A stretch of 63,428 bases of DNA from an uncultured Clostridia bacterium. Lineage in GTDB: Bacteria > Bacillota > Clostridia > Christensenellales > Borkfalkiaceae. The position numbers and the translations under genes were made by a program. Position 1 is the first letter of the stretch; every line of letters starts with the position of its first letter. Below are positions 16,265 through 54,916 of this stretch, piece after piece. The notes below the pieces were generated by a model. The model ran no database searches and was not told where the DNA came from. It saw only the letters and a program-made list of their open reading frames with translations. The DNA is taken from the NCBI GenBank assembly GCA_947625385.1, contig CANQOB010000008.1, forward strand, positions 1 through 63,428, read 5' to 3'.

Positions 16265-16292
16265 ATTATACCACCCCCCCCTGATTGGTCAA
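16265..16292 (-). promoter_or_regulatory. Promoter of lipoprotein 1 with G8 spacer tract
   Basis: TTGACC (16287-16292) and TATAAT (16265-16270) are 16 bp apart. The spacer contains eight consecutive G on the coding strand (16274-16281) followed by TGG. The AAAT-rich leader carries GGAGGAAATGT before the ATG. Changes in tract length would alter the spacing. Confidence 0.8.
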
Positions 16293-37929: not shown

Positions 37930-37956
37930 ATTATACCACCCCCCCCTGCTTGTCAA
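37930..37956 (-). promoter_or_regulatory. Promoter of lipoprotein 2 with G8 spacer tract
   Basis: TTGACA (37951-37956) and TATAAT (37930-37935) are only 15 bp apart, and the spacer contains eight G on the coding strand (37939-37946) followed by TGG. Two more G would give the optimal 17 bp. Confidence 0.8.
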
Positions 37957-38728: not shown

Positions 38729-41700
38729 TCAGAATGCCGAGACCGGTTGGACGCCCTTGTATTTCAAGCCCTTCTGTTCGTCGGAGAGCTGTTTGACATA
38801 GTTGTTCGCGCCGTTTTTGCCGTACATGTAGAAGTTGAAGTCCTGCGTCCCCGCAGCTTTGGGCAGGAGCGTCCCCTGCTGCTGCATGGCGCCGCTGCCG
38901 CCCGCGAGCACGGAGATATTGATGCGCATTTGCAGGAAGTCGTTGAGCGAGGCGTCGAGCTTCGACATATCGACCGCCGAATAGTTCCTGCCGCCTCCGT
39001 AGAGGGCGATTCCGCCATGCACGTATTGCTTGCCTTCCGCAGTCTCGATGATGTCGCTGTACGCGGCATCTTTGCAGACGTAGTCGATCATTGCCTTGAT
39101 GTCGAGTTTGAGCCAAGCGGAGAGCGCACCGATGGGAGATTCGATGAGGCTGGAAGAGTCGACGAGCGAAAGATCTTTCCAGTCGTAGAGGCGGACGTCT
39201 CCCACGAGGCGGAGGACGGAGGCAAATGACGTGCCGCCCGAAAACTCCCATTCCTTGGTGAGTCCGTTATTATAGGATTCGCCGCCCTCGTACAGGTATT
39301 CTCCCGCGAAGTTGCTCTCGATGCCCACGGTGAAGAGTCCGCTGGTCTCGACGACGGAATCTTTGAGCGTGACGTCCGTCATGACGTAATGCTGATAGAA
39401 CCAAGGGTCGTCGTAGAGCTTGCCGTCGCCGTACACATTGGAGGTGCCCTGCTCGGAATACGGTCTCCCGTTCTTATCGCGGAGCTGCGGCTCCCGTCCG
39501 TTCGCTTTGCTGGCGCGCAACGCGCGGTTGGCGCCCATTTTCAGGATAAATTCTCTGCCCTGCGAGAGGATGCAGCCCTCGATCGTCACGAGGATGCGCT
39601 CGCTGTCGACCCCCGCATTGTTCTGCGTGAGGCTGTTGATGAAGTAGTTCGTTCCCTCGCGGTTGCCGCCGTACGCCCGCACGACATTCCTGCCGTTGCT
39701 GATTCGGCAGTTGACGATCTCGCAGCTCGCGTTGATTTCCAGCGTGGTGCCGACAAGATTGAGGTTGGTGAGGTCGTACTCGCCGTTCTCGTTTTCGAGA
39801 GAGGAATCCGAGCAGCCGAGAAGATTGACGCCGTACAGCTTGACGCCGTCCGTGCGAAGAAGGAAGGCGCAGTTATCCTGTGCCGCGACGCTCGCCGTCT
39901 GCTTGTACTTGACGAAGTAGAGCGGACCCTTGTAGAGGTCGAGGAGCGGCTTCCCGTTCGCGTCGTGGGCATGCGTATAATTGTCCGCGTCGATCGATTT
40001 GCCGTTGCCGTAGACGTCGTTCGTAAATTCGAGCGCATACGAGATATAGGCATCGGCTTCGGTGAGGGGATCCGAAGTGTGTTTATACCATTCGACATTA
40101 TAGGTGGATTTCGCGCGATGGTTTTTGAGCACCGCCAGCCGTTCGTCGATGGAGAAGTCTTTCCCGCTCGCATCGGTGCCGAGTTTGATGTTCTCGGTGA
40201 GCACGACGGCACGCCCGTCATCGGTCGCCTTGACAAGTTCGGGCGCGTTCTTGACGGCGACGGCATCCTTCACCACGTTGAGCGTCAGCGTGGCTTGCAC
40301 ATCGGTATGGAGCGCGGCATTCCACCTCCAGGCAGCGGTCACCGTCACTTTCCCCGTTCCCTTGGGAACGAGAACGGGCGAACCGCTCGAAGTATCCACT
40401 TCGGCGACGGTATCGTCGTCCACGGAATATACAATGTCCTCGCCCGCAACGTCCACCACGCCCGAAGCATTGTAGATGTAGATGGCGAGCGGATAGACAT
40501 TCTCCGTGAGTTTGAAGGAATTGCCGTAAACCCAGCCTGCGACCGTATAGCACTGCGCGAGGTCGACCTTGACGTCGTTGTTGATCTTGACGGCGCTGAT
40601 CTTGTTGATGACGATGAGGTGAATCGTCTTGGTGATCGGCTCCGCCTCGCCGTAACGTGCGGTGACGCTGAGGTCGAATTCGCCGCCCCGCTGCGCCGTG
40701 ATCGTGACGACGCCGTCCTCTTCTTGGAAATACGACTGCGAACCGGTAAATTCCCACGTATAGTCGACGCCCTTCGCGCCTCCCGACGCGACCGTATAGA
40801 AGGAGACTGCGTTGCCCGTGAAGATCGTCACTTGCAGTCCGCCGTCGTCCGTCGTGTCGATCGTCCTGTCCGAGAATACGGAGAACGTGAAATCGACAAA
40901 GGAGAACAGGAAGGGAATCCGCTTGCCGAACGCCGTGATCGTCGCGGCGATCTCGTCCACATCGGTTTCGGTGAATTCGATCATGAGGATGTATTGCCCG
41001 CTTTGACCCACAGTCTCCACAAGATTCGCATCCCTCGATTCGAAGGAAGGACGTCCGCCCGCGCTCTCGACGCAGAGCTGTATCGCAGTCGTGCCGCGGG
41101 CAAGCTGCATGCTCCCGTCCACATCGTCCGCAAAAATTCCGTTGCCGTCCGAATCCGCGTACACGGCGCCGCCGTTGACGACCGCGACGACCTCTTTTTC
41201 GGTCTCCCCCGCGACCGCGGGCTTCGTGACATTGAGTTTGACCTGCTTGCGGATGGTCGCGTCGCCATGGCTGTCCACCGCGTAGACGTCAAAGACCGCC
41301 TCACCCGTGAACGGAAGAAAGATGGTTTTCGTTCCGCGCTCGATCTCCGCATACTCCGTCGCATACGAGTCGCTGCCCGCTTCGAGTTTGTACTGTGTGT
41401 ACTCGATCGGGTAGATGGACATCCCGTACGAATAGGTACCGGTGGGCACCGTCGCGGTATAGCCCTCTTCCGTCTCCGTGAGCAGATTTTCCGCCGCCCC
41501 GTCCGTTGAACGGTACAGCGTAAAATCGAAATCATAGGGTTCCGTAGAGTAGATGACGACGGTCATGGAGTCCGTAAAGCTCTTGTCGTTGCTCGTCGCG
41601 ACGATCTCCGCCGTGCCCTCTCCCTTGGGGACGATCTTCCCCTCTTGCGTCACTTCTACGACCTTTTCATTGTTCGAACCGAGCGTGAAACCCTTGTTCG

Positions 41701-41917
41701 TCGCATTGCTCGGAGATACTTCGACGGAGACGGTATGGTCGAGCTTATCCGCCATATCCAGAACGATCGTTCCGTCTTGGTCCGCATCCTCCGACCTGAT
41801 CGTAATGCCCGTCACGGGGACGGGGACGCCGAGGCTGATGAGATTGACGGATGAGAAAATGACGAGCACAAAGATCATCGGAAGCACCAGGATGAGCGCA
41901 ATGATCGTCTTTCGCAT
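38729..41917 (-). CDS. Membrane-anchored Ig-like surface protein
   Basis: The 1,062-residue protein has one N-terminal membrane segment (ALILVLPMIFVLVIFSSVNL) used as anchor or signal, then several bacterial Ig-like domains. The BIG2 signature is seen twice: VEVSPSNATNKGFTLGSNN to GEGTAEIVATS, and ASGGAKGVDYTWEFTGSQ further on. A second half, with NCRISNGRNVVRAYGGNREG and similar short turns, could be a right-handed beta helix. It is coupled to the ABC permease by an ATGA overlap, so it could be a transporter-associated outer subunit or a structural surface protein. No sortase motif is seen. Confidence 0.72.
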   Translation of the reverse strand: MRKTIIALILVLPMIFVLVIFSSVNLISLGVPVPVTGITIRSEDADQDGTIVLDMADKLDHTVSVEVSPSNATNKGFTLGSNNEKVVEVTQEGKIVPKGEGTAEIVATSNDKSFTDSMTVVIYSTEPYDFDFTLYRSTDGAAENLLTETEEGYTATVPTGTYSYGMSIYPIEYTQYKLEAGSDSYATEYAEIERGTKTIFLPFTGEAVFDVYAVDSHGDATIRKQVKLNVTKPAVAGETEKEVVAVVNGGAVYADSDGNGIFADDVDGSMQLARGTTAIQLCVESAGGRPSFESRDANLVETVGQSGQYILMIEFTETDVDEIAATITAFGKRIPFLFSFVDFTFSVFSDRTIDTTDDGGLQVTIFTGNAVSFYTVASGGAKGVDYTWEFTGSQSYFQEEDGVVTITAQRGGEFDLSVTARYGEAEPITKTIHLIVINKISAVKINNDVKVDLAQCYTVAGWVYGNSFKLTENVYPLAIYIYNASGVVDVAGEDIVYSVDDDTVAEVDTSSGSPVLVPKGTGKVTVTAAWRWNAALHTDVQATLTLNVVKDAVAVKNAPELVKATDDGRAVVLTENIKLGTDASGKDFSIDERLAVLKNHRAKSTYNVEWYKHTSDPLTEADAYISYALEFTNDVYGNGKSIDADNYTHAHDANGKPLLDLYKGPLYFVKYKQTASVAAQDNCAFLLRTDGVKLYGVNLLGCSDSSLENENGEYDLTNLNLVGTTLEINASCEIVNCRISNGRNVVRAYGGNREGTNYFINSLTQNNAGVDSERILVTIEGCILSQGREFILKMGANRALRASKANGREPQLRDKNGRPYSEQGTSNVYGDGKLYDDPWFYQHYVMTDVTLKDSVVETSGLFTVGIESNFAGEYLYEGGESYNNGLTKEWEFSGGTSFASVLRLVGDVRLYDWKDLSLVDSSSLIESPIGALSAWLKLDIKAMIDYVCKDAAYSDIIETAEGKQYVHGGIALYGGGRNYSAVDMSKLDASLNDFLQMRINISVLAGGSGAMQQQGTLLPKAAGTQDFNFYMYGKNGANNYVKQLSDEQKGLKYKGVQPVSAF

Positions 41918-43659
41918 CAGATACCACCTCCCGAGAATTCATAATATTTCCGCCGCAAGCGGAAGAACAGATAGAACCCCGCGAGCAAGGTAGCAATGAC
42001 CGCAAGCCCGCTTGCGAGGATGTACGTCAGATAGCCGTACTCGAACTGCCGGAGCATCGACATGATCTTCAGGACAAAGACCAGCCCGCCGACGGCAAAG
42101 GAGAGTACCATGCCCATGACGATGACCGTCGAGACCGTTCCCGAGGACTCCTTGATCTCTCCGTCGTCCTCCGTCGAAAACTTGGCGTGATTGAAGTCAT
42201 ACCGCGTTGCGATGGCGATATTGACGAAACTGAACAGAATGCCGATGACCGCGATGAATGCCGCGTCGAAGAATCTCGCGTTGCCCGTCGCATAGAGAAG
42301 AAAGGCGGACGCGATCTGCGAGATGGCGGCGACGATGAGGCAGAGGACGACCTTCGAGAGGAACACCGCTTTGAAGTTCAGCGGCATTGCCTTCACGGTA
42401 TAGAACATTTCCCCGTCGCGGCTGATGTTCGTTGCGCAGAAGGTATTGGTGAGCGCTCCGAACAGAACGGTGAGGAAGAGCGCGAGCTCCAACCCGCAAT
42501 CGAGTCCCACGAGATTTTCCACCAAAGACGCCCCGACGTCCATACAGAAGTAGACCATGAGCGGCATGATGAACGCCACCGAAAAATAGGAGAACATGTA
42601 GGAGGGGGTGCGGAAGATGAGCAAGAACTCCTTTTTGAGCAGCGCGGAAAATTTGTTCCCGCGGTCGGCGAGATAGGTCGATTTGAGCATCGAAGAAGAA
42701 ACGCCTTGGTTGCGCGCCTGCAACGCCCTTCCCAAAATGCCCTTGATGATGAGCATGGAGAGAACGATACACACGACGGCGAGAACGACAAGCCCTATCC
42801 AGCTCCACACAAACTCGCTGCCCGTCATGATGTTCGCAAACCACCGCGCGGGGTACAGCCACGCGCAGACCTTGCCGATGACGTTCATGACCTGTTCGTT
42901 GAAGAAGTAGCGCAAAGAGTCGCCGACGAGCATTTGCTTCACGCCGTTCAGAATGATGGAATACACCCAAAATCCCGCCCCGAGGAGCGCCGTCACCAAA
43001 ATAAAGGTGATGGCGAACCGCTCCCGCAGAAACCGCTTGATGACCTGGAAGAGCGGGACGAGCACCGATGCGATGCCGATCGTGATGAGCGGGAGCAAAA
43101 AGCAGATGCCCACCGAGAGCAGCCAGAAGGCAAGCGTCACGCCGACCTTCCAGGCAAACGTCGCATTGACCGTAAGAACGGCGACGAGGGCGATGCCGAG
43201 CTGTCCCCTATAAATGGAAATGAGTTTTGCCACGAACAGCGTCCGCGCATTGATGGGCATCGCGGAGAAGATCTTCATGTCGTCTGCGGTAAAGAGTTCC
43301 CGCCCGAGCTGACTGATCCCTCCGATCACCATCCCCACGATGACCGCGGTATAGAGCATCGTGAGCAGTTCTGTCGAACGCGTGACCACGTCGGGTCTCC
43401 CGCCCGTCTTGACGGTGACGTACACTTCCACGAACTGCCCGAAGAAGATGACAAAGAGCGCAACGATCGCGGCGACAAGGACAAGGCGCAAAAGAAAGCC
43501 GAGAATATCGAACTGTCCCGCCTTGAACATGGAACGCCGCTCCTCTCTCCCCTTCCGGAGAAGCGCTTTTACCGTGCGGAACTTGATTCCGCCCGCTTTT
43601 TTCATTTCGCCCACGGCTGCCGCGTCACGGCTGCGGAGCGCTTCATTCCTGTCGTTCAT
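41917..43659 (-). CDS. ABC transporter permease of the surface operon
   Basis: The 580-residue protein is a permease with about 12-14 membrane helices. The first block (LGFLLRLVLVAAIVALFVIFFG) follows a charged N-terminus; later blocks include LLSVGICFLLPLITIGIASVLVPLF and the final pair VSTVIVMGMVLSFAVGGLVFV and ILASGLAVIATLLAGFYLF. It resembles large ABC-2-type exporters of Bacillota. The ATG at 43659 lies 17 bp inside the ATPase gene; GAGGAG is 13 nt upstream. Its substrate is unknown; export of a surface component of this operon is plausible. Confidence 0.8.
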   Translation of the reverse strand: MNDRNEALRSRDAAAVGEMKKAGGIKFRTVKALLRKGREERRSMFKAGQFDILGFLLRLVLVAAIVALFVIFFGQFVEVYVTVKTGGRPDVVTRSTELLTMLYTAVIVGMVIGGISQLGRELFTADDMKIFSAMPINARTLFVAKLISIYRGQLGIALVAVLTVNATFAWKVGVTLAFWLLSVGICFLLPLITIGIASVLVPLFQVIKRFLRERFAITFILVTALLGAGFWVYSIILNGVKQMLVGDSLRYFFNEQVMNVIGKVCAWLYPARWFANIMTGSEFVWSWIGLVVLAVVCIVLSMLIIKGILGRALQARNQGVSSSMLKSTYLADRGNKFSALLKKEFLLIFRTPSYMFSYFSVAFIMPLMVYFCMDVGASLVENLVGLDCGLELALFLTVLFGALTNTFCATNISRDGEMFYTVKAMPLNFKAVFLSKVVLCLIVAAISQIASAFLLYATGNARFFDAAFIAVIGILFSFVNIAIATRYDFNHAKFSTEDDGEIKESSGTVSTVIVMGMVLSFAVGGLVFVLKIMSMLRQFEYGYLTYILASGLAVIATLLAGFYLFFRLRRKYYEFSGGGI

Positions 43660-44644
43660 TGCGTAAGAAATACTCCTCGAAATCAAAATTGGGGTTCGCG
43701 GCGCAGATCTGCTTGACGTTGAGCTGGTCGACCTGCTCCCCCTTGCGGATGAGCACGACTCTGTCGCACAGTTTTGCGACCGTGTTCAACGCGTGCGACG
43801 AGAAGATGATGGAATTGCCTTCCGCCACGTACTTGTACATAAAATTCTGTACTGCCCGCATCGTCCGCGGGTCCAGACCCGTCATGGGCTCGTCCAGGAT
43901 CCACAGTTTGGGGTTGTGGATGAGCGACCCCATCATGCAGATCTTTTGCCGCATCCCGTGCGAATAGGACGAGATGAGATTCTCGATGGGTTTCCCGAGC
44001 TGAAACACTTTTTCGAGGCGGGCAAGCCGCTTGGAGCGGAGCTCGGTGGGAACTTCATAGACGTCCGCCATGAAATTGATATACTGCAACCCCGTCATCT
44101 TCACGAAAGTCGCATGGTTATCCGTGACGAACCCCATGTTGGCTTTCGCCTGTTCCGCCTGTTTCTGGATATCGTATCCCGCGATGGTGATCTTCCCCTT
44201 TTCAAAGGGCAGCATGCCTTCGAGGCACTTTAGGGTCGTGCTCTTTCCCGCGCCGTTGTGCCCGAGAAGCCCCACGATCTCGCCCGCATAGCAGTTGAAC
44301 GAGACATTCGTCACAGCCCAATTCGCTTTGCGGGAGTATCTTTTGTAGAGCCCTTCGACCCGAACGACCTCCTTTGCGCCGACCCGACCCGTTTGAAAGG
44401 GGTCCTGCGTCTGAGGAACCTGCGGCTGAGGCATCTGCGTCTGTTGCCATTGCACCCCCGGCTGTTGCCATTGCATCCCCGGCTGTACGGTCTGAGGATA
44501 GCCGCTATACATCGCGGCGGTCGCGTAGGTCGCATAGGCGGCGTAGTCCGAATAGTTGGGGAATCGCACCGTCGCGCAATGGCAGCGGGGGCAAGTTGCG
44601 ACATCATCCGCATAGGATAGGCCGCATTGATAGCAGTACGTCAT
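43643..44644 (-). CDS. Zinc-ribbon ABC transporter ATPase
   Basis: The 333-residue protein fuses an N-terminal zinc ribbon (YCYQCGLSYADDVATCPRC, two CxxC pairs) and a Gln/Pro/Tyr-rich linker of about 50 residues (PQTVQPGMQWQQPGVQWQQ) to an ABC ATPase. The ATPase has Walker A GHNGAGKSTT, the signature YSHGMRQKICM, where the canonical LSGGQ is SYSHGM, and Walker B LWILDEPMTGLDP, plus the switch His in IFSSHAL. It drives the permease encoded next. The ribbon and linker are unusual for an ATPase and may recruit it to a partner. Confidence 0.88.
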   Translation of the reverse strand: MTYCYQCGLSYADDVATCPRCHCATVRFPNYSDYAAYATYATAAMYSGYPQTVQPGMQWQQPGVQWQQTQMPQPQVPQTQDPFQTGRVGAKEVVRVEGLYKRYSRKANWAVTNVSFNCYAGEIVGLLGHNGAGKSTTLKCLEGMLPFEKGKITIAGYDIQKQAEQAKANMGFVTDNHATFVKMTGLQYINFMADVYEVPTELRSKRLARLEKVFQLGKPIENLISSYSHGMRQKICMMGSLIHNPKLWILDEPMTGLDPRTMRAVQNFMYKYVAEGNSIIFSSHALNTVAKLCDRVVLIRKGEQVDQLNVKQICAANPNFDFEEYFLRNERQE

Positions 44645-44656
44645 AGCGTTCTCCTT

Positions 44657-45271
44657 TTAATATACAAACGTTAAAGTGATGTTCACCGTCGAATTCTTCG
44701 AGTCGTAGGAGATATTCATCCCCGTCACATGCGTTTCGTCGGTTTCTATTCTCAGTTTCAAGCCGTGCGGACGGGCGCTCACGGGAAGATTCTCCGAGAT
44801 CGCAAACACCGTCTCGACGCTGTCGTCCTTGACCCTGCCTTCCAGCACTCCGTTTTCAAACGTGGGAGCCGGGGAGAAATACAATTCGTTCATGTTCAGC
44901 CGCACGGAGAATTCCCCGGCGTTGCGGGTCTCCTGTACCGACGTTACCGTATATTCCTCCGCGGCGCCCGAGGCGAGCGAGTTGAGCTGTTTGACCGTGC
45001 CCGTCACCGTATAGACGCTCCCCTCTTTTGCGAACGTTTTGGCGCTGTCGTACTGCACGATATCCCCTTGCGAGATCTCGATGTGCTGCACGACGGTCAC
45101 GGCGTCGGGAAGTTTTTCATATTTTTCCATGACGAGGGATAAGGGCGTCTCGGCGGAAGGCGTCGAAAGGTCGCCCATTTCGCCCAGGAGCCCGTCGGGG
45201 GAAAGCGTTGCGCAACCCGTGAGGATCCCAAGGCATACCATTGCGATCGCGATGACCGACAGCTTTTTCAT
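44657..45271 (-). CDS. Lipoprotein of the surface operon
   Basis: The 204-residue product begins MKKLSVIAIAMVCLGILTGC, a lipoprotein signal with lipobox LTGC. The mature part is beta-rich and slightly acidic (for example YTVTGTVKQLNSLASGAAEE), a shape similar to small substrate-binding or barrel-like lipoproteins. Its ATG overlaps the adhesin stop by one base, so the two are translated together, and it precedes the ATPase by 12 bp. It could be a docking protein for the exporter. Confidence 0.75.
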   Translation of the reverse strand: MKKLSVIAIAMVCLGILTGCATLSPDGLLGEMGDLSTPSAETPLSLVMEKYEKLPDAVTVVQHIEISQGDIVQYDSAKTFAKEGSVYTVTGTVKQLNSLASGAAEEYTVTSVQETRNAGEFSVRLNMNELYFSPAPTFENGVLEGRVKDDSVETVFAISENLPVSARPHGLKLRIETDETHVTGMNISYDSKNSTVNITLTFVY

Positions 45272-48200
45272 TACAGTCTCCCTCCTTTCTTTACGATATA
45301 GGCGAGCGCTGCAAGCGCGGTAAGCGTGGCTGCCGCACCGAAGAGCGCTTTGATGGGCGCGTTCGCGATCTCCTCCGCCGTCTTGATGACGTCATCGATG
45401 TCCGTGAGCTGCTCCCATGCGTCCACATAAGCCTGGTACCGGGCAAGTTCCCCTGCCCCCACCGAACGCTCCTCGTCCGTCAGCGCGGAGAGCGCGTTGT
45501 AGATCTCTACGAGCGTACCGTAATCGTCCGTCGTGAGATGCTCGGCGTCGAGCCCCTCGGCGAGCTCCGCAAGGCGGGCGAGCGTATCTTTGAGGTTCTT
45601 CGTATAGCCGACTTCATCCGTCACGATGACGAGGAACACCGCTTCGCCCGAATAGTTGTCGTCCACAACGGTCACTTTGACGTCGAAGTTCCCGATCTCC
45701 GCGACGGATTCGCGGTCGAGCGTCGATGCAAGCGAATGCGGCGTTTGCCCTTCGAAGACCGTGACCGTGCTTGTGAGCGCCAGCGGTTTGCCCGCGAATT
45801 TTGCATGGACGGTCATGCCGTCCGAGGTGCCGCCGTCGCCCACGAGCAGGATGAAGAGCGCCGCTCCGCTGACGTCCTGCTTCTCTACGGTATAGACGCC
45901 CGCTTTTCCGACGAGTTCTTCTGTGTCTCCCTCGTAGCTGCCGCGGAACGTGACGGTATAATTTTCATTGCCCGCCGCGCCGGAGATCGCATACTTCCCT
46001 GCGTTCGTAAGTTCCCCGACGGAGAGCGTGATGCCGAGAATGTCTTTCTCCTCGTTTTCCGCAAGTCTGCCCTCGTCCGTAAGGAGCGTCCAAAGATCCT
46101 CGTCGAACGCATAGGTATGATCGTAAACGTACATTGCGCTCTGGTCGCGGATGAGGACGACCACGGGGCGCGGTTTGACGGTGAACGTTCCGTCCTGCCA
46201 CGTCACATGATAGTACGGGTTGGCGGATCTGCCGCGGATGGTGTAGCCCTCCTTCGTGACAGCCGTGCCCGGATCTTTTTCGAGCGTGACGTTGAGGTCC
46301 TCGCCGTCGAGGATGGACCCGGCTTCCACCGTCCAGCCGCTGTCCTGCTCCTGCGGGACGGAGAACTCTTTGTTGTCGTAGATCTCTTCCTGCGGGAGAA
46401 TCTTGACGGTGACCTCGCGCGGGTCGACGGTATATGTACCGGACGTTCCGTGGGAACCCGTGAACGTCACGGTATAGTTGCCGCAGTCGGGGTCTGCCTG
46501 CCCCGAAATATAGTAGGAGCCGGGGGTGAGACGGATATCGCCGGAGGCGCCCTCCCACGTGAGCGTCACGCCGAGAACGCTCTTATCATCGCCCTCGGCG
46601 AGGGCGGACGGCTCCACCGTGAACGTCGCGTCCTCGTACTCGTCGCCGTATTGGCTGCGGTGATCCCCGATGGTGACGGTGATCGCCTTCGGCGTGATTT
46701 TGAGCGTGCCCTTTACGAAATTCACCTGATAGTCGCTATTCGTCCAAGCGCCCTCGATCGCCTCGGAATATGTTCCGACGTCCCATTTTCCCGCATGCGT
46801 TTTCGTGAGCGAAAGAACGATGTTGAGTTCATCTTTTTCGCAGACCGCGCCCGGCGCCGCCGTCCATGCGCTGTCGCTGAGATCGGGAACAACACTGCCC
46901 GCATATTCGAAGGTCTGCTCGCTCAGTTTGATTTCGATTTCCTTCTTCACGATCTCAAACGCCTCCTGATTGGTGGCGGAGTTCGCGTAATTGGTCTTTC
47001 CCTTTATGGTGACGGTCGCCTTGCCGACGTGCGTGTTGTTCGAATATTGAACATCGAAGTCGTCTTTGCTCAGCGTAACCGTCTCGTCGTTGATCTCGAG
47101 CGTGACCGTAATTTCAGGCTGCTGCTCGCCGCCGTTGTAGGTCAGTTTGCCGTTTGCAACGGTGATTTTCGCATGGGAGAGATCGCGCGCGGTGATCGTG
47201 AACGTTGCAGTCGCGTCGCCCGTAAAGTTCCCCTCGTTCGCCGTGACGGTGACGGTTGCCTCGCCGACGTTGATATTGGAGGAGTATTTCACCGTATATT
47301 CATTTGCTTGCAGAGTAAGCCCATCAATTTCGACCTTCGTGACCGAGGGCGTGATCTGCTTCGTGGTGAAGGTACGATCGCCGTCCGCAAGCGTGACTTC
47401 CGCTCCGTTGATCGATTTCGGATTGATCGTGAACTGCCCTTCGATCTCCGTCTCGTATTGCGTTTGATCAGTCGTCGTGAACGTCACGTGCGCTTTTACG
47501 AGATATGTGCCCGCATTCTTCATCTCCTGTGCGGGCGCTCCCAGCAACGTATAGGTATACGTCACATCGCCGAATTGTCCATCGGTTCCCTCTGCGGGAG
47601 CTCCGAGAACGACTTCGAATTTCTGCACCTGCCCGTTATAGACACTGCTGTTTGCTTCGGGGAACTTCACGTTCGCAAACACGGCGGGCGTGACGGTATA
47701 GAGTTTGCTGCCATCCCCCGCGACGACGCTGTAGCTTCCCCAATCTTTCATCAAGATGACGACGGTAATGTCGTACGTGCCCTCATCGGAATCCTTGCTC
47801 ACACCGACGGAGAGACGATAGATCTTTACAATCTCTTCCAAGAATTGAGCTCTGTCTTTCTCGATGAGTCCCTCTGCCGTTGCGGTGAGCGCGACGGGAT
47901 CCTGTCCCTTCGGCGAATGTTTGGGCTCCGGTTTGATCGTCAGCGTCTTTCTTGCGATCGTAAAGTTCAGCTCGAAACTTCCGTTGAAGTTGTGCGTACC
48001 CGTGACGGTGACCGTCGCCGTGCCCGCAGCCTCGTTATTCTCGTAGCCGAGCGTGTAGCAAATGTCCTTCGCGATCGCGCCCTGCACGCCTGCGATCGTA
48101 ATTTTGATGTCGGGCGTCCACGCCTCGCCCTTATAGACGAACCCGCCGTCGGGCGTCTGCACTATCGCGCCTTCTTTCCCGTCCGCGATGTTGCGCGCGG

Positions 48201-51200
48201 TGATTTTGAACGTCTTGGTCGCCTCGCCCTTGAAGTTGCCCGAGCCTGTGACCTTCACGGTGACGCTTTCGGTCACGTTGATCTTGTCGCCCTCGTAGGT
48301 GACGGTGTAATCCGTCCCCTGCGCGAGAGCCGCGAAGCCCGCGAGCGTGAATCCCGCAAACGGCTCATGCGAATTGCCGTCGTACACAATGCTTTCTTCG
48401 GAGAGCGCAATAACGCCGTCCGAGAGGTCTTTTTTCGCGATCTCGAACTTGCCCGCGCCGTCAGCGGTGAGGGAATAATTGTCCTTGCCCGTGCCGCCGA
48501 GCGTCACGGTAAGGTCATACAGTTTCGCGTCCCACTTTTCGGGAGATTCGGCGAAGTCGACCGTCACGGTGAGCCCTTTTGCGATGTCCGCCTTAAATAG
48601 CGTTTCCGCGTCCCCGTTCACCGAATAGGCACTTTGGTCCACCGACGGTTTGTTCCCGCTGTAATCGGCGGTCTGTTTGTCGAGCGTGAGCACGATCGCT
48701 TTCGGGGTGATCCGATAGGTGAGCTCGAGCGTGCCCGTATAGTTCCCCTGTCCGTTGATCTTCACGGTGACGCCCGCTTCGGTCACGTTGATCTTGTCGC
48801 CCTCGTAGGAGACGGTGTAATCCTCCGCCGTGAGCGGCGTTCCCGACCCTTCCCGAAGGTGCGCCGTGACAGACTGCACGCCGATCGTCGTATCGGTGCC
48901 GTTGTAGACCCTCGACAAGGCTTCGAGAACGGCATTTGCAGCCGATCCTTCGCCCAGATCGAAGGCAGAAATTCTCCACTTGAACGTGAAATGATCGACA
49001 AGCTGCCCGTCTTGCAGGAAGTACGCGCCCTCCGAGAGCGTGACGGTGACGGTATAGCCGTCCGCCGAGACCTCGATATGCGTGCCGACGTCGCTCGCCG
49101 AGACGGTCACGTCCTTGCTTGCGCCGTCAAAGCCGAGATATTGGAAATTAAAGCCGGCATAATTTTCTTTGAAGAGTTGGACGAGCTCCTCCGCCAAGAA
49201 CGCGGTGCCGCGGTAGACAAAGTTGCCGATCTCGCCGTTTTCCGGCGTGCCGAGAAGATAGCGGGTCTCCTGCTCTTCGCAGCCGAGCTCGTCGCAGTAG
49301 CGGTGAAGTTCTTCGTGCCCGCCCGCGGAAGCCGTGCCGTCCGTATCGCGGTATTGCCACGTCTCCGCGCTCGCATGATGCTCCGTATGGTCGATTTTCC
49401 ACGAGCCGATCATGCCTTCTGCATTGGGAAGATTCGTCGTCACGGGCGTCTTATGCGCGTCCGCAGCGTGCTGCCCGTTCCCGCTTTCGTACGTGGTCGA
49501 GACGCCTTCGAGCGTCCACTTGGAGTTGTTGTCCTGTGCCGTCCACGTTGCGGAGAAGGTCATCTCCTTTTCCGTCTTGTTGTCGTCGCCCGCGGGGATC
49601 GCCGTCAGGCACCCGTGCACCTTGTCATAGAGGCGCATGGAGCTCTCGTATGCCGCATAGTTGCAGTCGTAAGCGGCATTTGCGCCGTCTACGATCGTTC
49701 CCTTGACCGTCGCGCCCGCGGGAACGACGATCTTGCCCGTGGAGCCCGACGTCTGCACGACGCCGAGGAAGGTCGCGGGGCGCGGGGTGAGGTCCTCATC
49801 CCCGCCTCCGGAGCCGAGAATTTCGAACTTGGGCACGGGCGTCTTGGTGCCGAGGACGAGCGTGCCGTCCACGATGAGCGTTCCGTTCGTTTTGTAGCCC
49901 ACCGCTTTGAGCTGCTCTGCCGAGGGATAGCTCTTGCCGCTCATGCCCGTCTGCACAAGTCCGTCGTACACATAGACATTGGCATTCAGCGTGAGCGTCG
50001 CACCCGCGCCGACCTTTACAGAGGCGCCCGGCATGACTTTGAAGTCCGTCTTGGTCTCGTACTGTGCGTGAACGTCGCCTTGCGGAACCGCAAAGTCGTT
50101 CATTTCGACTTGGAAATTATAGGGAATGGAGAAGTAGACCCCCGTCGTGGGGACGGTAAATCCCATTGCCGAGAAGCGCATGTCGCAGAACGTCGCGCCG
50201 CCCTCGAACTTCATCGTCGTCTCGCCGATGCCCTCGGTGCCGTTCGCGGCGGCATTTTCCGCGATCTTCGCGCCGTTGTAGGTGACGGTCACGCTCGCGC
50301 CGTTTGCGAGCATGACGAAGGTATTCGCGCCCGTGCCGTCGCCGCCTCTCCCTTCTCCCATATCATAGGAGACGAAGGGCTGGTCGAGGGAGGTGTGCAT
50401 GCTCAGGGAAGAGGCATAGAGGCTCGCATGTCCCCACAGCTGTGCGCCGTAGTGCACGGTGAACGGCACCTCGATGTTGACCATCGCATACCGCTTGAAC
50501 GGCGTCTGCCCGCTCTCAAAGAGGCTTAACGTATTGCTGCCGCCCGAGAAGTCGAGGATGAGGAAGGGCTCGTAGAGCTTGCCGCCCAAAGCGACGTCGA
50601 TGGTGCCCATGTCCGCACCCTCATGTCCGTTTCCGCCCCAAACTCTGCCGTAGACGTCCATCACGCCGCCGTCGGCGATCTCGATGGAACTGCCCTTGTC
50701 GAGAATGAGTTCGGCGTACGCGCCCGAGGTGTGTCCTTGGTAGCCCTGACCCACGAGGTAGTTGGCGATACCGCCCACTTGGAGCGTCCCTTGCACGGTG
50801 ATCTTCGCACCCTGTCTGACGTACACCGTGAGATGACGGTATGTATCCTTCTTTTGGGGGTGGAACCACGAAATATGATTGTCTGCGCCGTTCTCCGTCG
50901 TGCCCGCTTCATAGAAGCCGCCCTCGTCGTTGTAGGGAAGAAGCAGCGTGACGCCCGCCTTGATCGTAAAGCTTTCCGTGATCTCGGCGCCGTCCTTGAC
51001 GACATAGACAATGTCGTTGACCTTTGCCTGTTCGACGGCATCTTTGATCGTTGGATAGAATACGCCCTCGGCGCGCGCGGAATAGGTGCCCGTCGGCGCC
51101 ATATAGGCGACGATATTGCTCTCGCCCTCGACGAGGATGCTTGCCTTTGCCTCCGTAGAGGCGAGCCTGCCGTTGACCGACCAGCCGTAGAACTGCTCGT

Positions 51201-54006
51201 TACTGCCGAGCAGCGCTTCGAGATTGATGACGGAGCCCGCATTGACGGTGAACGTCTGCTTGCCTTCCGTCGTCGTCTCGTAGACGTCCTCGCCCACGGT
51301 GGCTTTGGCAGAGCCGACATGCTCCGCGGAGACGTCCAAGGTGATCGTTTGCAGTCCCGATACCAGATTGACGTCCCTGACCGCTATCCAGCTGTCGTCA
51401 AACACGGTATCGCTCGGGCGCGTACCGTCATAACTCGCAAGAAACGCGACATAAATCGTCTGTCCCTTTTGAATCGGGATGCTCGCGCGGAACCAGCCGC
51501 CCTCCGCGTGGACGACCTGCGTGCTGTAAGCGTAATTGCCGTCCTTTTGCATCTGCGCGAGCATCGTCGCGCCGTCGATCGTGCCGTCCAAATACACGCG
51601 GGCATTGTTCGAAGTGAATCGTTTCGTGCCGAACCAGAGCTGTCCGCTTGTCACACGGCTCAAAAGCGCTTCACTGAAATACCCGCCGATCTTGAATTCG
51701 AACGTGAGGCTGCCGCTCTCGATGCTCTCGTTGTTCAGCGTGAACACAAGCTGGGAAGCAATGGTTTTCGTATCGGCGAATCCGTTGGGCTTAAAGGTAT
51801 CCTTGACCCTGAGTCCGTAGGCGAGATGATCGGGTGCCGAATTGACGGGGTCGAATGCGAAATCATAGGTTTCAGACGCCGCCGAAGATTTTTGAATTTC
51901 ATTTTTCACCGTCAAGTCTTTGGTGTCGAGGATGTTTTCAAGTCCCCCTTCCACCGATTCGAGCGCGCTGAAAGAGAGTTTGACCGCCGACCAGATGACC
52001 TGCCCGTCCGACCGCGTATAGGTGAGCTCGTAGGTCGCCTTCGCCTTGACCGTTGCCGCAAAGTACCATTTGCTCCCCGTATCCGTGAGGTTTTCTTCGG
52101 TCTGGGCGACGCCGTCGACCGTAAACGTGAAGTCCGCCAAGTTGAAATCCCCTTGCGAGAATTTCTTGATGTAGAGGAGCAGCGTATTCTCCCGGTTGAA
52201 CGGGAAGTCGATGGTCTGCCCGTTTTCGACCGTCCCGATGTCCTGTTCTTGGTCGGGAGCGGTCTTTGTCTGCGCCTTCACGACGAACGCGGGCGCGTCC
52301 TCCTTGTAATCGGCTTGGATGAACGGCGTGTCGTAGGTCTCTTCCTGCGACTTCGGTAGGTTGTAATTGGTGTAGGAGCTCGTCTTTCTTTCGGAAATGC
52401 CGACGACGCCCACCTTTTCAAGGTCATAGAAGGTAAAGTAGAAGCTCTTTGCGGTCTGCGTCCAAGCCGCGTCCTCGTCCGCGGACGTAAAGTTGCCCGT
52501 GAACCCGAGGAAGGAGATCGCGACCTGCTGGTCGGGGTCGATGGTGGACGTGTGCTTCTCCTGCACCTGCACGGCTTTGAACTCGACGCCCGTCAAGCCG
52601 AGCGGGATAGTTGCTTGGCTTTGGTCATGCGTCAGAATTTCGGGCGCTTCCAACCCGTCGTAGTTCACCTGCACTTGGAAGCTGTCGGCAATTTCAAAGG
52701 ATACCTGGCTGTACTTGATGTCCTCACTCGTGTGCACGCAAGGGTTATCGATAAAGAGGGTATCCGTGTCCTTGTCGAACCCGCCGATCTTGTTCGAAGT
52801 GAACCTGATCCAAATGCGGTGTGCACCCGGGGTAGAGATCCACTGCACATACTTCAAGGGAGTCTGCTCGCTCCCCACCGGGATATTGTAGGGTATGAAT
52901 GCCGATTGGCTGCTGCCGGAGGAAGAAGTCGTGCTGTCGAGAAGGTATAATTGGAAAGTTTTCCTCCCCGCCATCGAATAGAAATACCCGAAGTCGAGAT
53001 AGGCGCCGCCCTCGGGAATGATAAATTCATAGGTGAGGGTCGCCTCGTCTCCGACTTCATGGTTTTCCCCGATCAACGTGTAGCGCTTTCCGCCCTCGCC
53101 GTCCTCGAGGTCGCTCACCGACCACTGGTCTAACTCCCCTTTTTTGGACAGGGTGACGCGGTCGGTGCCTTTTTGCAGGAAATGCGCATAGTAATGTTGG
53201 TCGCGCGCGCCGAATGTGTTCGTGATGGCATACTCCGCCTTGTTGTAGACGGCTGCGCCCGTCTCGTCCGTCCACCCTGTAAACTCATATCCATCCTCGG
53301 GAACGGCTTTGAGGGTGATCGACTTGCCCCACTGCGGAGCAAGTTGGAGGTCTGTCCCGGTGCCGCTCTTCTCGTCGGCGTCGCTCCAATCGATATGCCC
53401 TCCCCCTTGGGAATCTTCGGCGACGGTCACCTTCAGGTCGCTCGTATTTTCGGGCGGCATAAAATAAACTTTCGCCGTTCCGCGTGCGGTCGTCCACTTG
53501 AAATCGATGACGTCGCCCTCTTTGACCTCGCGCTCGTACCGTTTACCCGTATCTTTGCAGCCAGAGGTCGACGACTCCTCTCTGGTCAATGCCTCGTTCG
53601 TGGCAAACTTGTCGACCGTGCCGCCGTCGGTGGTATGCGTATGCGTAGCCTCGGTCAAAATGCAGCAATAATCATTTGCAAGGTCTGTTCCGTAGCGGTC
53701 GGAATGCCATTCGAAAATGAATTTTCCGCCCCCTGTAATGGTAAATTTCAGTTCCAGATGACCGTTTTCCGTGTTCGACCCCTGCTGCCCTTCGCTGTAC
53801 CAATACCAATTCGTGCCCGCAGTATATCTCCACGGGTCCATCGTCTCTTCGTCGAGCCGATAGGTCGCCGTGTTCTCCGAGAGGTCGGGCGTCGCCGCAT
53901 CGGCATCGGCGGGAGCGATCTCGGTCAAAGCAAAAATCAAAACCGAAGCGCAAAGAAGCGCGAGCAGCGCAAGTGCAAATCTCCTCCATGTCTTGATTTT
54001 TTCCAT
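45271..54006 (-). CDS. Giant MBG-repeat adhesin-like surface protein
   Basis: The 2,911-residue protein is the largest in the window. It has a signal sequence (MEKIKTWRRFALALLALLCA), a beta-rich N-terminal half with repeat-like modules such as AVPEDGYEFTGWTDETGA (a bacterial repeat module), a parallel-beta central region around residues 1,000-1,500, and from about residue 1,650 a row of at least ten MBG-type Ig-like domains with motifs such as YTVTYEGDKINVTE, TVTVTGTHNFNG and KAITVTIGDHRSQYGDEY. The end is a helix (APIKALFGAAATLTALAALA) plus KKGGRL, a membrane anchor without LPXTG. AGGAGG precedes the ATG. It should extend from the cell as an adhesin. The gene leads a six-gene operon with its own ABC exporter. 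Confidence 0.85.
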   Translation of the reverse strand: MEKIKTWRRFALALLALLCASVLIFALTEIAPADADAATPDLSENTATYRLDEETMDPWRYTAGTNWYWYSEGQQGSNTENGHLELKFTITGGGKFIFEWHSDRYGTDLANDYCCILTEATHTHTTDGGTVDKFATNEALTREESSTSGCKDTGKRYEREVKEGDVIDFKWTTARGTAKVYFMPPENTSDLKVTVAEDSQGGGHIDWSDADEKSGTGTDLQLAPQWGKSITLKAVPEDGYEFTGWTDETGAAVYNKAEYAITNTFGARDQHYYAHFLQKGTDRVTLSKKGELDQWSVSDLEDGEGGKRYTLIGENHEVGDEATLTYEFIIPEGGAYLDFGYFYSMAGRKTFQLYLLDSTTSSSGSSQSAFIPYNIPVGSEQTPLKYVQWISTPGAHRIWIRFTSNKIGGFDKDTDTLFIDNPCVHTSEDIKYSQVSFEIADSFQVQVNYDGLEAPEILTHDQSQATIPLGLTGVEFKAVQVQEKHTSTIDPDQQVAISFLGFTGNFTSADEDAAWTQTAKSFYFTFYDLEKVGVVGISERKTSSYTNYNLPKSQEETYDTPFIQADYKEDAPAFVVKAQTKTAPDQEQDIGTVENGQTIDFPFNRENTLLLYIKKFSQGDFNLADFTFTVDGVAQTEENLTDTGSKWYFAATVKAKATYELTYTRSDGQVIWSAVKLSFSALESVEGGLENILDTKDLTVKNEIQKSSAASETYDFAFDPVNSAPDHLAYGLRVKDTFKPNGFADTKTIASQLVFTLNNESIESGSLTFEFKIGGYFSEALLSRVTSGQLWFGTKRFTSNNARVYLDGTIDGATMLAQMQKDGNYAYSTQVVHAEGGWFRASIPIQKGQTIYVAFLASYDGTRPSDTVFDDSWIAVRDVNLVSGLQTITLDVSAEHVGSAKATVGEDVYETTTEGKQTFTVNAGSVINLEALLGSNEQFYGWSVNGRLASTEAKASILVEGESNIVAYMAPTGTYSARAEGVFYPTIKDAVEQAKVNDIVYVVKDGAEITESFTIKAGVTLLLPYNDEGGFYEAGTTENGADNHISWFHPQKKDTYRHLTVYVRQGAKITVQGTLQVGGIANYLVGQGYQGHTSGAYAELILDKGSSIEIADGGVMDVYGRVWGGNGHEGADMGTIDVALGGKLYEPFLILDFSGGSNTLSLFESGQTPFKRYAMVNIEVPFTVHYGAQLWGHASLYASSLSMHTSLDQPFVSYDMGEGRGGDGTGANTFVMLANGASVTVTYNGAKIAENAAANGTEGIGETTMKFEGGATFCDMRFSAMGFTVPTTGVYFSIPYNFQVEMNDFAVPQGDVHAQYETKTDFKVMPGASVKVGAGATLTLNANVYVYDGLVQTGMSGKSYPSAEQLKAVGYKTNGTLIVDGTLVLGTKTPVPKFEILGSGGGDEDLTPRPATFLGVVQTSGSTGKIVVPAGATVKGTIVDGANAAYDCNYAAYESSMRLYDKVHGCLTAIPAGDDNKTEKEMTFSATWTAQDNNSKWTLEGVSTTYESGNGQHAADAHKTPVTTNLPNAEGMIGSWKIDHTEHHASAETWQYRDTDGTASAGGHEELHRYCDELGCEEQETRYLLGTPENGEIGNFVYRGTAFLAEELVQLFKENYAGFNFQYLGFDGASKDVTVSASDVGTHIEVSADGYTVTVTLSEGAYFLQDGQLVDHFTFKWRISAFDLGEGSAANAVLEALSRVYNGTDTTIGVQSVTAHLREGSGTPLTAEDYTVSYEGDKINVTEAGVTVKINGQGNYTGTLELTYRITPKAIVLTLDKQTADYSGNKPSVDQSAYSVNGDAETLFKADIAKGLTVTVDFAESPEKWDAKLYDLTVTLGGTGKDNYSLTADGAGKFEIAKKDLSDGVIALSEESIVYDGNSHEPFAGFTLAGFAALAQGTDYTVTYEGDKINVTESVTVKVTGSGNFKGEATKTFKITARNIADGKEGAIVQTPDGGFVYKGEAWTPDIKITIAGVQGAIAKDICYTLGYENNEAAGTATVTVTGTHNFNGSFELNFTIARKTLTIKPEPKHSPKGQDPVALTATAEGLIEKDRAQFLEEIVKIYRLSVGVSKDSDEGTYDITVVILMKDWGSYSVVAGDGSKLYTVTPAVFANVKFPEANSSVYNGQVQKFEVVLGAPAEGTDGQFGDVTYTYTLLGAPAQEMKNAGTYLVKAHVTFTTTDQTQYETEIEGQFTINPKSINGAEVTLADGDRTFTTKQITPSVTKVEIDGLTLQANEYTVKYSSNINVGEATVTVTANEGNFTGDATATFTITARDLSHAKITVANGKLTYNGGEQQPEITVTLEINDETVTLSKDDFDVQYSNNTHVGKATVTIKGKTNYANSATNQEAFEIVKKEIEIKLSEQTFEYAGSVVPDLSDSAWTAAPGAVCEKDELNIVLSLTKTHAGKWDVGTYSEAIEGAWTNSDYQVNFVKGTLKITPKAITVTIGDHRSQYGDEYEDATFTVEPSALAEGDDKSVLGVTLTWEGASGDIRLTPGSYYISGQADPDCGNYTVTFTGSHGTSGTYTVDPREVTVKILPQEEIYDNKEFSVPQEQDSGWTVEAGSILDGEDLNVTLEKDPGTAVTKEGYTIRGRSANPYYHVTWQDGTFTVKPRPVVVLIRDQSAMYVYDHTYAFDEDLWTLLTDEGRLAENEEKDILGITLSVGELTNAGKYAISGAAGNENYTVTFRGSYEGDTEELVGKAGVYTVEKQDVSGAALFILLVGDGGTSDGMTVHAKFAGKPLALTSTVTVFEGQTPHSLASTLDRESVAEIGNFDVKVTVVDDNYSGEAVFLVIVTDEVGYTKNLKDTLARLAELAEGLDAEHLTTDDYGTLVEIYNALSALTDEERSVGAGELARYQAYVDAWEQLTDIDDVIKTAEEIANAPIKALFGAAATLTALAALAYIVKKGGRL

Positions 54007-54044
54007 CTGAAAAACCTCCTGTAACAAAGATTTTTTTCGAATGC

Positions 54045-54070
54045 GTCCACAAAAGTATACTTATGCGGAC
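54045..54070. promoter_or_regulatory. 26-bp near-palindrome, site I
   Basis: GTCC-A-CA-A-AAGTATACTT-A-TG-C-GGAC is an inverted repeat with only two mismatched pairs around the centre AAGTATACTT. It lies in the adhesin leader, downstream of the promoter and upstream of the start codon. Confidence 0.8.
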
Positions 54071-54110
54071 AGCCGTTTTGGTCTCGAAAGTACAGAACGA
54101 TACCACCACT

Positions 54111-54139
54111 AATATATTCTTTTCGACCTTTCTTGTCAA
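54111..54139 (-). promoter_or_regulatory. Promoter of the adhesin surface operon
   Basis: A consensus TTGACA (54134-54139), a 17-bp spacer and TATATT (54111-54116) give the best sigma-A promoter in the window. Transcription starts near 54104. It lies between sites I and II. Confidence 0.85.
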
Positions 54140-54159
54140 GAATTTTTCATCACTTTTTT

Positions 54160-54185
54160 GTCCGCAAAGGTATACATTTTCGGAA
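54160..54185. promoter_or_regulatory. 26-bp near-palindrome, site II
   Basis: This copy matches site I in 20 of 26 positions in direct orientation, with GTCCGCAAAGGTATAC as the conserved half. It lies upstream of the adhesin -35 and near a TATACA box that could serve the recombinase gene. The two centres are about 115 bp apart. Confidence 0.75.
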
Positions 54186-54201
54186 ATTTTATGTAAAAAT
54201 T

Positions 54202-54229
54202 AAAATTAGTGGGTTTTTTCACTAATTTT
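54202..54229. terminator. Hairpin in the recombinase leader
   Basis: A 10-bp stem AAAATTAGTG/CACTAATTTT with an 8-nt U-rich loop is followed by TTTAATATTTTTC and then the GGAGGG site of the recombinase. It could act as an attenuator, or as an insulator between the two divergent genes. Confidence 0.55.
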
Positions 54230-54253
54230 TTTAATATTTTTCGGAGGGTAACT

Positions 54254-54916
54254 ATGATCTTCGGCTATGCGCGGGTCTCCACGAAGGGACAGAATTTAGA
54301 CCGCCAGCTCGCGGAACTCAAAGAATTCGGCGTTCCGGACAAAAACGTGTTCACCGACAAAGAGAGCGGGAAAGACTTCGGGCGGCAGAACTATTTACGG
54401 CTGCGGCGGCGTCTCAAAGAGGGCGACCTGCTCGTGGTGAAGTCCATCGACCGCTTGGGGCGCAATTACTCCATGATCCTCGAAGAATGGGGCTACATCA
54501 CCAAGACGGCGAAGTGCGACGTCGTCGTGCTCGACATGAACTTATTGGACACGCGCGCCCGCGACAGCGACCTGATGGGGAAATTCATCGCAGACCTCGT
54601 GCTGCAAATTCTCTCCTTCGTGGCGGAAAACGAGAGGATGAGCATTCGGGAGCGGCAGGCGGAGGGAATCCGCATCGCAAAAGAGAAAGGCGTGAAGTTC
54701 GGACGTCCGCAGGCGGAATTGGCGGAGAGCGTCCCCGAAGCCTTTGCGCTCTATCTTGCGAAGGAGCTCACCCGCGCAGAAGCGCTCCAAAAGACGAACT
54801 TGAAGCGCACGACGTTCTACAAGTACTACAACCGTTTCCTCGCGGAAAACGCAAAAGAAAAGGGCGCGGCGGCTTCTCTCGAAGCCGCCGCGCCCCCTTA
54901 TTCCGACAAATTCTAA
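54254..54916 (+). CDS. Serine recombinase (resolvase/invertase family)
   Basis: The 220-residue protein has the small serine recombinase layout. The N-terminal catalytic domain holds IFGYARVSTKGQNLDRQL with the nucleophilic Ser, the later LVVKSIDRLGRN with its Arg motif, and a long E helix (FIADLVLQILSFVAENER). The C-terminal helix-turn-helix reads AEALQKTNLKRTTFYKYYNRF. The ATG has GGAGGG five bases before it. The last 20 residues are encoded by the terminator hairpin of the convergent operon, so the natural end is probably replaced. Two palindromes lie upstream as candidate targets. Inverting, resolving or regulatory functions cannot be told apart from sequence. Confidence 0.88.
   Translation: MIFGYARVSTKGQNLDRQLAELKEFGVPDKNVFTDKESGKDFGRQNYLRLRRRLKEGDLLVVKSIDRLGRNYSMILEEWGYITKTAKCDVVVLDMNLLDTRARDSDLMGKFIADLVLQILSFVAENERMSIRERQAEGIRIAKEKGVKFGRPQAELAESVPEAFALYLAKELTRAEALQKTNLKRTTFYKYYNRFLAENAKEKGAAASLEAAAPPYSDKF
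54862..54895 (-). terminator. Terminator of metK-bioY-maeB inside recombinase gene
   Basis: The GCGCGGCGGCTTC/GAAGCCGCCGCGC stem, extended by CC/GG, is followed on the minus strand by CTTTTCTTTTGCG. On the plus strand it is coding sequence for the last residues of the recombinase. Confidence 0.85.

Follow-up and report, generated by a model that had tools for sequence, protein, structure and literature searches.

We analyzed a 63,428-nucleotide stretch of DNA from an uncultured bacterium of the Clostridia (Borkfalkiaceae; assembly GCA_947625385.1, contig CANQOB010000008.1), denoted the window, and focused on the interval from 54045 to 54185, which lies between an operon of surface-protein genes and a gene encoding a small serine recombinase. 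Here a promoter is bounded by two near-palindromes, an arrangement that we propose to be a minimal invertible promoter (inverton). The features are as follows.

54045..54070, no strand: site I, GTCCACAAAAGTATACTTATGCGGAC, a 26-bp near-palindrome with 11 of 13 pairs; putative crossover site on the adhesin side, with comparable sites in congeners
54071..54159, no strand: proposed invertible segment, 89 bp between the sites (115 bp centre to centre); matches the congeneric genomes G042 and G125 in reverse complement and G056 directly
54111..54139, minus strand: sigma-70-type promoter, TTGACA-17-TATATT, 11/12; in its present direction it faces the adhesin operon (ON); similar congeneric promoters occur in both orientations
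54160..54185, no strand: site II, GTCCGCAAAGGTATACATTTTCGGAA, a 26-bp near-palindrome with 10 of 13 pairs; putative crossover site on the recombinase side
54202..54229, plus strand: leader hairpin and T run between site II and the ribosome-binding site of the recombinase gene; terminator- or attenuator-like, from its fold and covariation
54254..54916, plus strand: small serine recombinase of 220 amino acids (aa), resolvase/invertase family (Pfam PF00239, 8.4e-28); proposed to flip the segment

Sites, promoter and recombinase gene

The two sites are identical at 20 of 26 positions and both are centred on GTATAC, as a sequence-only reading of the window had reported with coordinates and counts that were borne out. 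They form the only pair of such quality in the window, and no comparable pair arose among first-order Markov resamples, of which 30 were of the whole window and 3000 of the local stretch. The window contains 33 palindromes with at least 10 of 13 pairs, where the resamples average 16. Sites I and II are genuine palindromes, far outside what chance would produce. A degenerate pattern for such sites, denoted A-type, recovered sites I and II from the bacterium's own 1.66-Mb draft genome at 0 and 1 mismatch; the next matches, in two places, had 3 mismatches. The reversed-pattern control gave one match of the 3-mismatch level per strand. The two places were not accepted as sites, being at control level, and the region of one held no site on scanning.

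The promoter had been described as the best in the window. It scores 11/12, but five other places share that score; a 17-bp spacer is found in this one only. While it is in its present orientation, site I falls within the 5' untranslated region of the adhesin gene. An exact search for the promoter in viral contigs gave 0 matches, and an Rfam search of 53900-54400 gave no match up to E = 1.

The recombinase gene, correctly placed just beyond site II by the sequence-only reading, has its ATG at 54254, 68 bp past the site (70 bp in that reading), with GGAGGG upstream. The protein has a resolvase-type catalytic domain, the YARVS and DRLGR motifs and a short C-terminal part, as expected of a small serine recombinase; the serine of YARVS and the DRLGR motif have roles in the catalytic domain of this family. 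Its best match among solved structures was 2r0q (7.5e-32), aligned over residues 1-189 with GYARVS and SIDRLGRNY in common. This structure carries the name Tn552 DNA-invertase bin3, and we take it to be Sin. Further top matches were the gamma-delta/Tn3 resolvases. The score for the Mpi family (NF009949) was 49.8 bits, below the curated cut-off of 272, and no relatives of the recombinase were confirmed in viral contigs. Genes for malic enzyme and MetK lie beyond the recombinase gene, on the side opposite the surface operon.

Of the 13 leaders that were folded, 7 have a hairpin followed by a T run in the stretch that separates the proximal site from the ribosome-binding site of the recombinase gene. 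The covariation alignment comprised these seven, leaving out leaders with another fold or no hairpin, such as those of G024, with another hairpin, and G033, with no notable one. In the alignment, 95.7% of cells pair and 6 of 10 pairs have changed on both sides. Neither value was reached in 500 shuffles, and slid controls of the alignment gave 0 to 2 pairs changed on both sides. This suggests that the hairpin may be a terminator, damping transcription of the recombinase gene when the promoter faces it.

Related cassettes in congeneric species

To place the locus among its relatives, we used two genome sets, each including the own genome. The recombinase was matched in 38 of 101 genomes at E <=0.001, and in 23 of the 103 genomes of the genus set at E <=1e-20. 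We examined 59 upstream entries, some of them partial or duplicate, and used the nine with an A-type pair in the orientation and inversion comparisons. These nine linked cassettes (two sites with a promoter between them, beside a recombinase gene) come from nine congeneric species, the window's included; the recombinases of G019, G018 and G010 are about 57-60% identical to that of the window. The promoter faces away from the recombinase gene (ON) in the window, G024, G056 and G018, and towards it (OFF) in G042, G131, G125, G019 and G010. Both orientations thus occur between species, with 4 ON and 5 OFF. In keeping with an inverton, the promoter lies between two sites; their inverted sense is legible where the cores are asymmetric (G131 and the B-type sites described below), not in the palindromic sites of the window.

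If the segment flips, species with opposite orientations should align in reverse complement. We compared all 36 pairs of the nine segments in the frame of the recombinase, directly and in reverse complement, with the 99th percentile of shuffles as threshold. Among the 20 opposite-orientation pairs, the reverse complement scored higher in 16 and the direct alignment in 3, with one tie; the threshold was exceeded by the reverse complement in 10 and by the direct alignment in 4. Among the 16 same-orientation pairs, the direct alignment scored higher in 12 and the reverse complement in 3, again with one tie, and exceeded the threshold in 8, against 0 for the reverse complement. Opposite pairs gave reverse-complement/direct scores of 67/16 (G056-G042), 68/22 (G056-G125), 46/15 (window-G042), 48/14 (window-G125), 46/20 (G024-G131) and 50/22 (G019-G018). 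Same-orientation pairs gave direct/reverse-complement scores of 45/17 (window-G056), 76/24 (G042-G125) and 43/22 (G024-G056). On the recombinase tree, the orientations at the nine tips require four changes, the maximum possible with four ON tips.

We also found a deletion-type allele. The recombinases of G019 and G047 are 93% identical, and the flanks agree at 284 of 350 aligned positions. Relative to G019 (L011/L055), G047 (L009/L062) has a 105-column gap running from site to site (distance 104), and a single site remains. With the promoter segment deleted, neither neighbour would keep that promoter in G047. This is an outcome to be expected at times from exchange at two symmetric cores, and it supports such exchange without being proof of recombinase action. 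The sequence-only reading had taken the palindromes for plausible crossover sites, at which exchange would either turn the promoter round or remove it, and had named a single arrangement among related strains as evidence to the contrary; the relatives instead show both orientations, inverted segments and one site-to-site deletion. Contig ends at or near sites (G033 C25/C50, G018 C7/C14/C17/C22, G024 C21, G042 C67 and own C11) were rejected as proof of flipping, because G033 and G018 hold repeated cassettes, which break assemblies too.

In 21 of 22 A-type pairs, the site behind the promoter lies 8 or 9 bp from the start of the -35 box, whichever way the promoter points, and pairs unlinked to a recombinase gene hold the promoter at the same offset as linked ones. 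The exception is the window, where the offset is 20 bp, about one helical turn more; its spacing of 115 bp apparently includes one turn added behind the -35 box. Distances between site centres are 94-96, 103-105, 113-116, 125 and 135 bp. At a period of 10.5 bp the spacing phase has R = 0.91 (20 values, de-duplicated by genome and length), and the best period for all 23 values is 10.35. Including the B-type and two hand-read cassettes (26 values), R is 0.88 at 10.5 bp and the best period 10.15. Across periods of 7-16 bp, none of 5000 random spacing sets came up to the observed best; for the distinct values at 10.5 bp, 1 of 20000 did so, a statistic whose weight is lowered by shared ancestry. 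These whole-turn differences point to a DNA loop whose ends would be obliged to face each other. The counts include L020 (G091), whose sites lie 105 bp apart with no clear promoter (9/12 on both strands) and which was given no orientation. The hand-read cassettes, L014 (G006) and L029 (G048), have GTGTAC/GTACAC site pairs with spacings of 94 and 115, and stand outside the orientation counts.

We expanded the search to sites away from the recombinase gene. The sequence-only reading had suggested looking for further copies of the motif. Besides the pair, the own genome held none with fewer than 3 mismatches, while the pattern TCCRNAAANSTATASNTTTNYGGA at one mismatch was found in 12 of the 103 genus genomes (reversed control 0). 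Every one of these 12 also belongs to the 23 genomes with a recombinase match (hypergeometric 9e-10, with the limit that a linked site and the gene do not vary independently). Of the 22 A-type pairs, 13 are remote from the matched recombinase gene. G015, G033 and G059 have one recombinase match each and no local pair; their pairs are all remote (one, three and three, respectively), so the recombinase presumably works in trans.

More distant recombinases mostly have no site upstream, while some lie beside a second family of sites, denoted B-type, with a GTAG-type, non-palindromic core in a clearly inverted sense. The own genome has two serine recombinase paralogs, at C37:16001-16576 (L059) and C11:126-707 (L058), and the first of these lies beside a B-type cassette. 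The B-type promoter is in the plus orientation in G000 C37 and G056 C20 and in the minus orientation in G042 C28 and G129 C11, again both states (2/2). The four opposite comparisons scored 55, 41, 39 and 37 in reverse complement versus 22, 15, 22 and 14 directly, and the two same-orientation comparisons 34 and 50 directly versus 21 and 17 in reverse complement. In the C37 cassette the promoter now points towards the recombinase, and camelysin/TasA-like genes lie opposite (PF12389, one above and one just under the cut-off). Own contig C11 starts at an apparent B-site core, a contig end of the kind that an unresolved inversion could produce, which is suggestive only; a pattern search for its left flank gave an exact match in C37 and two further matches with 1 mismatch.

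A lone A-type site or weaker match (16-24/26 to the consensus) lies upstream of six recombinases that have no local pair (L006, L007, L009, L010, L070 and L073). These lone sites are candidates for an operator, an excision scar or both.

In the window, the promoter faces an operon of five close-packed genes, listed here with the first ribosome-binding site.

54013..54018, minus strand: ribosome-binding site AGGAGG of the adhesin gene (ATG at 54006), from the sequence
45271..54006, minus strand: giant secreted surface protein (adhesin), first gene, 2911 codons; signal-like N terminus, InlB-type B repeat, MBG domain and hydrophobic C terminus
44657..45271, minus strand: lipoprotein-like gene, second, 204 aa; no Pfam match
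43643..44644, minus strand: ABC transporter ATPase, third; zinc-ribbon-like N terminus, PF00005 at 1e-27
41917..43686, minus strand: putative membrane protein, fourth, 589 aa; no Pfam match, hydrophobic stretches in the translation, possibly an ABC permease
38729..41917, minus strand: Ig-like (Big_2) surface protein, last close-packed co-directional gene, 1062 aa; PF02368 at 4.5e-7

From the promoter to the last stop codon (38729) the operon measures about 15.4 kb, shorter than the 15.8 kb given by the sequence-only reading. Many inverton targets in the congeners are likewise large secreted proteins or camelysin/TasA-like genes. Homology to the window adhesin was tested for the targets of G056 and G015 and was found for both. 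An InlB-type domain was above the cut-off in the targets of G056, G033 C45 and G015, and under it in that of G059 C13; the other targets in G033 and G059 have a MEKIKKWRR-like N-terminal start in common (by eye). The promoter of G042 C60 faces camelysin-like genes and that of G125 C13 a similar-looking operon (by eye), while the targets of G024 C1, G125 C65 and G018 C17 have no recognisable domain. Repetitive-looking, spurious open reading frames (VTEVG..., PPPEGGG...) were seen beside several invertons (L112 and L113 in G033, L080 in G131). A similar one in L050 (G042) lies beyond the recombinase, and in G033 such stretches sit between the sites and the target gene.

Elsewhere in the window, two minus-strand promoters (16265-16292 and 37930-37956) have a run of eight G between their boxes (TTGAC...CAGGGGGGGGTGGTATAAT), with a spacer of 15-16 bp. 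The pattern TTGACN{3,7}GGGGGN{0,8}TATAAT has 20 matches in the own genome (reversed control 0) and occurs in 81 of the 103 genus genomes, the own included (two control matches in all). These G-run promoters are possibly a regulon of slipped-strand, phase-variable promoters, distinct from the invertons.

Weighing the explanations

We consider it probable, at roughly 0.87, that 54045-54185 is a minimal promoter inverton, in which the serine recombinase flips the promoter between the two sites. A dimer of the 220-aa recombinase would bind each 26-bp palindrome, and the DNA between the site centres, about 11 helical turns, would loop to join both dimers. Catalysis would consist of cutting at the central AT of GTATAC, rotation and rejoining, which would invert the 89-bp segment with its promoter; the window species may still flip it today. 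In the present, ON state the promoter would transcribe the genes for the giant adhesin, the lipoprotein-like protein, the ABC ATPase, the membrane protein and the Ig-like protein. In the OFF state the operon would be silent, and the promoter would read through the terminator-like hairpin, the putative attenuator, towards the recombinase gene, favouring a flip back. The symmetry of the core would also allow excision of the promoter from the same synapsis, with one site left behind.

We lean, with more reserve, towards a fuller model of a self-resetting toggle with one promoter common to the surface operon and its own inverter. The OFF state would then be self-destabilising, with the hairpin as a damper. 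Synapsis would be enhancer-free, by a loop of 9-13 turns, and in some species one recombinase would coordinate several unlinked adhesin copies.

Several observations weigh against an active inverton or parts of this model. All orientation differences are between species. Two opposite pairs scored higher directly (G024-G019 30/21 and G056-G019 27/18), with both direct scores above the shuffles, and a third, window-G131 (19/21), was decided neither way. The recombinase tree is a weak one, with good support for 4 of 15 inner branches, 6 open and one row partial. Upstream of several recombinases there is a single site or no site at all. Targets could be assigned for 11 of the 13 remote pairs, of which ten are OFF and one is ON (G024 C9), and in 8 of the 11 the target gene begins about 400-900 bp from the site; given this excess of OFF states and these distances, some remote pairs may be locked or may not drive the assigned gene. 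Some linked targets are not clearly surface proteins, namely those of G024 (154 aa) and G125 (1702 aa), both with no Pfam match, and that of G019 (a sub-cut-off zinc ribbon). For the recombinase gene in the ON state, the promoter scan gave a mere 9/12 match, which overlaps the start codon. One measure of the hairpin, the count of further pair types, was reached by 29 of 500 shuffles. With a symmetric core that confers no directionality, excision should compete with inversion, and replication slippage between the repeated sites could be another source of the G047 deletion.

The strongest rival is that the window holds an old inverton now locked ON, with relatives flipping now or formerly. The own draft genome shows a single state, site II is the more degenerate of the two (10/13), and 11 extra bp lie behind the -35 box. 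Set against this, the recombinase frame is open and its alignments to solved resolvases and to congeneric proteins extend over its length, both sites retain their core and outer arms, and the spacing is still near a whole number of turns; we judge locking to be unlikely. It is also conceivable that the palindromes are operators only, at which the recombinase or another dimeric protein would loop the DNA and repress the promoter with no recombination. Resolvases are known to repress their own promoters, a repression loop would require helical phasing equally, and single sites or site-like matches are retained upstream of six recombinases without a local pair. Repression alone does not explain related promoters in both orientations at mirror-image positions, nor the inter-site segment missing in one relative. 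We regard operators alone as very improbable, while an operator function may coexist with recombination as an added role of the sites.

Hardly any credence can be given to a res site of a mobile-element resolvase, serving deletion or cointegrate resolution with the promoter there by accident. Such a site would suit the Sin-like and gamma-delta/Tn3 resolvases among the top solved-structure matches and the existence of a deletion-type allele. However, the identified neighbours are malic enzyme, MetK and the surface operon, the segments differ by inversion, the promoter offset is constant in unlinked pairs, and a scan of the upstream regions, which degenerate or head-to-tail half-sites could escape, showed no third conserved palindrome. 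An independent origin of the opposite promoters in separate species is the least credible, with odds close to negligible. Sigma-70 boxes are short, and 10 of the 20 opposite-orientation pairs were not significant in reverse complement; yet in the closer species the inter-box spacer (around GTCGAAAAG) turns together with the promoter, which keeps a constant offset from the site.

Comparison with known systems

With an active promoter inverton at this locus, giant adhesins and camelysin/TasA-like proteins of an uncultured Clostridia genus would be under a recognisable system of phase variation, detectable by sequence alone from the site pattern and spacing. Among serine-recombinase switches it would be unusually small, and its helical quantisation opens the question of synapsis to direct testing; it would also be a natural circuit in which one promoter would feed either its cargo or its own inverter. 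No description of such a module was found among the matches listed in open-licence literature (titles and abstract openings). The comparison below draws on excerpts of the cited papers.

In Bacteroides fragilis, the serine recombinase Mpi inverts 13 regions, seven of which are polysaccharide promoters (PMC4747536). The window resembles this system in its serine recombinase, promoter inversion, surface structures and action at distant sites. It differs in phylum, in sites that lie 94-135 bp apart, and in a promoter that faces the recombinase gene in one state. The sites of Hin are palindromic and about 26 bp long. The flagellar switch of Salmonella uses a Fis enhancer of 65 bp that lies about 100 bp away from one of the hix sites (PMC3798978), and the hin gene lies inside its own inverted segment of 966 bp (PMC5903667). 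Both systems have a small serine recombinase, two short sites and an inverted promoter, but the A-type inter-site DNA of 77-109 bp is too short for the Hin enhancer layout, and the recombinase gene of the window lies outside the segment.

The Sin resolvase uses an accessory site beside its crossover site (PMC2428073). Sin and Tn3/gamma-delta resolvases are the best solved-structure matches of the window recombinase; unlike theirs, window-type segments appear to invert, and the scan of upstream regions, which degenerate sites could escape, showed no conserved accessory site. The fim switch of Escherichia coli is served by the tyrosine recombinases FimB and FimE and shows 'orientational control', in which recombinase expression is tied to switch orientation. 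It measures 314 bp, within a range of 251-314 bp for fimbrial switches (PMC5903667). It shares with the window an invertible promoter of a surface organelle and, as we predict for the window, recombinase expression linked to orientation; it differs in its tyrosine recombinases and is about three times longer. In Clostridioides difficile, switch segments are 154-230 bp long, a recombinase gene is nearby only for Cdi7 among seven switches, and RecV is a tyrosine recombinase (PMC5903667). These are likewise short inversions in a Clostridia genome, some of them at surface genes.

In the excerpt of a survey of gut invertons, the inverton promoter was generally not in a position to drive nearby invertases; one tyrosine recombinase was a possible exception (PMC11892184). 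In the present cassettes, in contrast, the recombinase gene is placed for such drive. Promoter inversion is already known; an ultra-short module that would feed its own inverter would be a new form of it.
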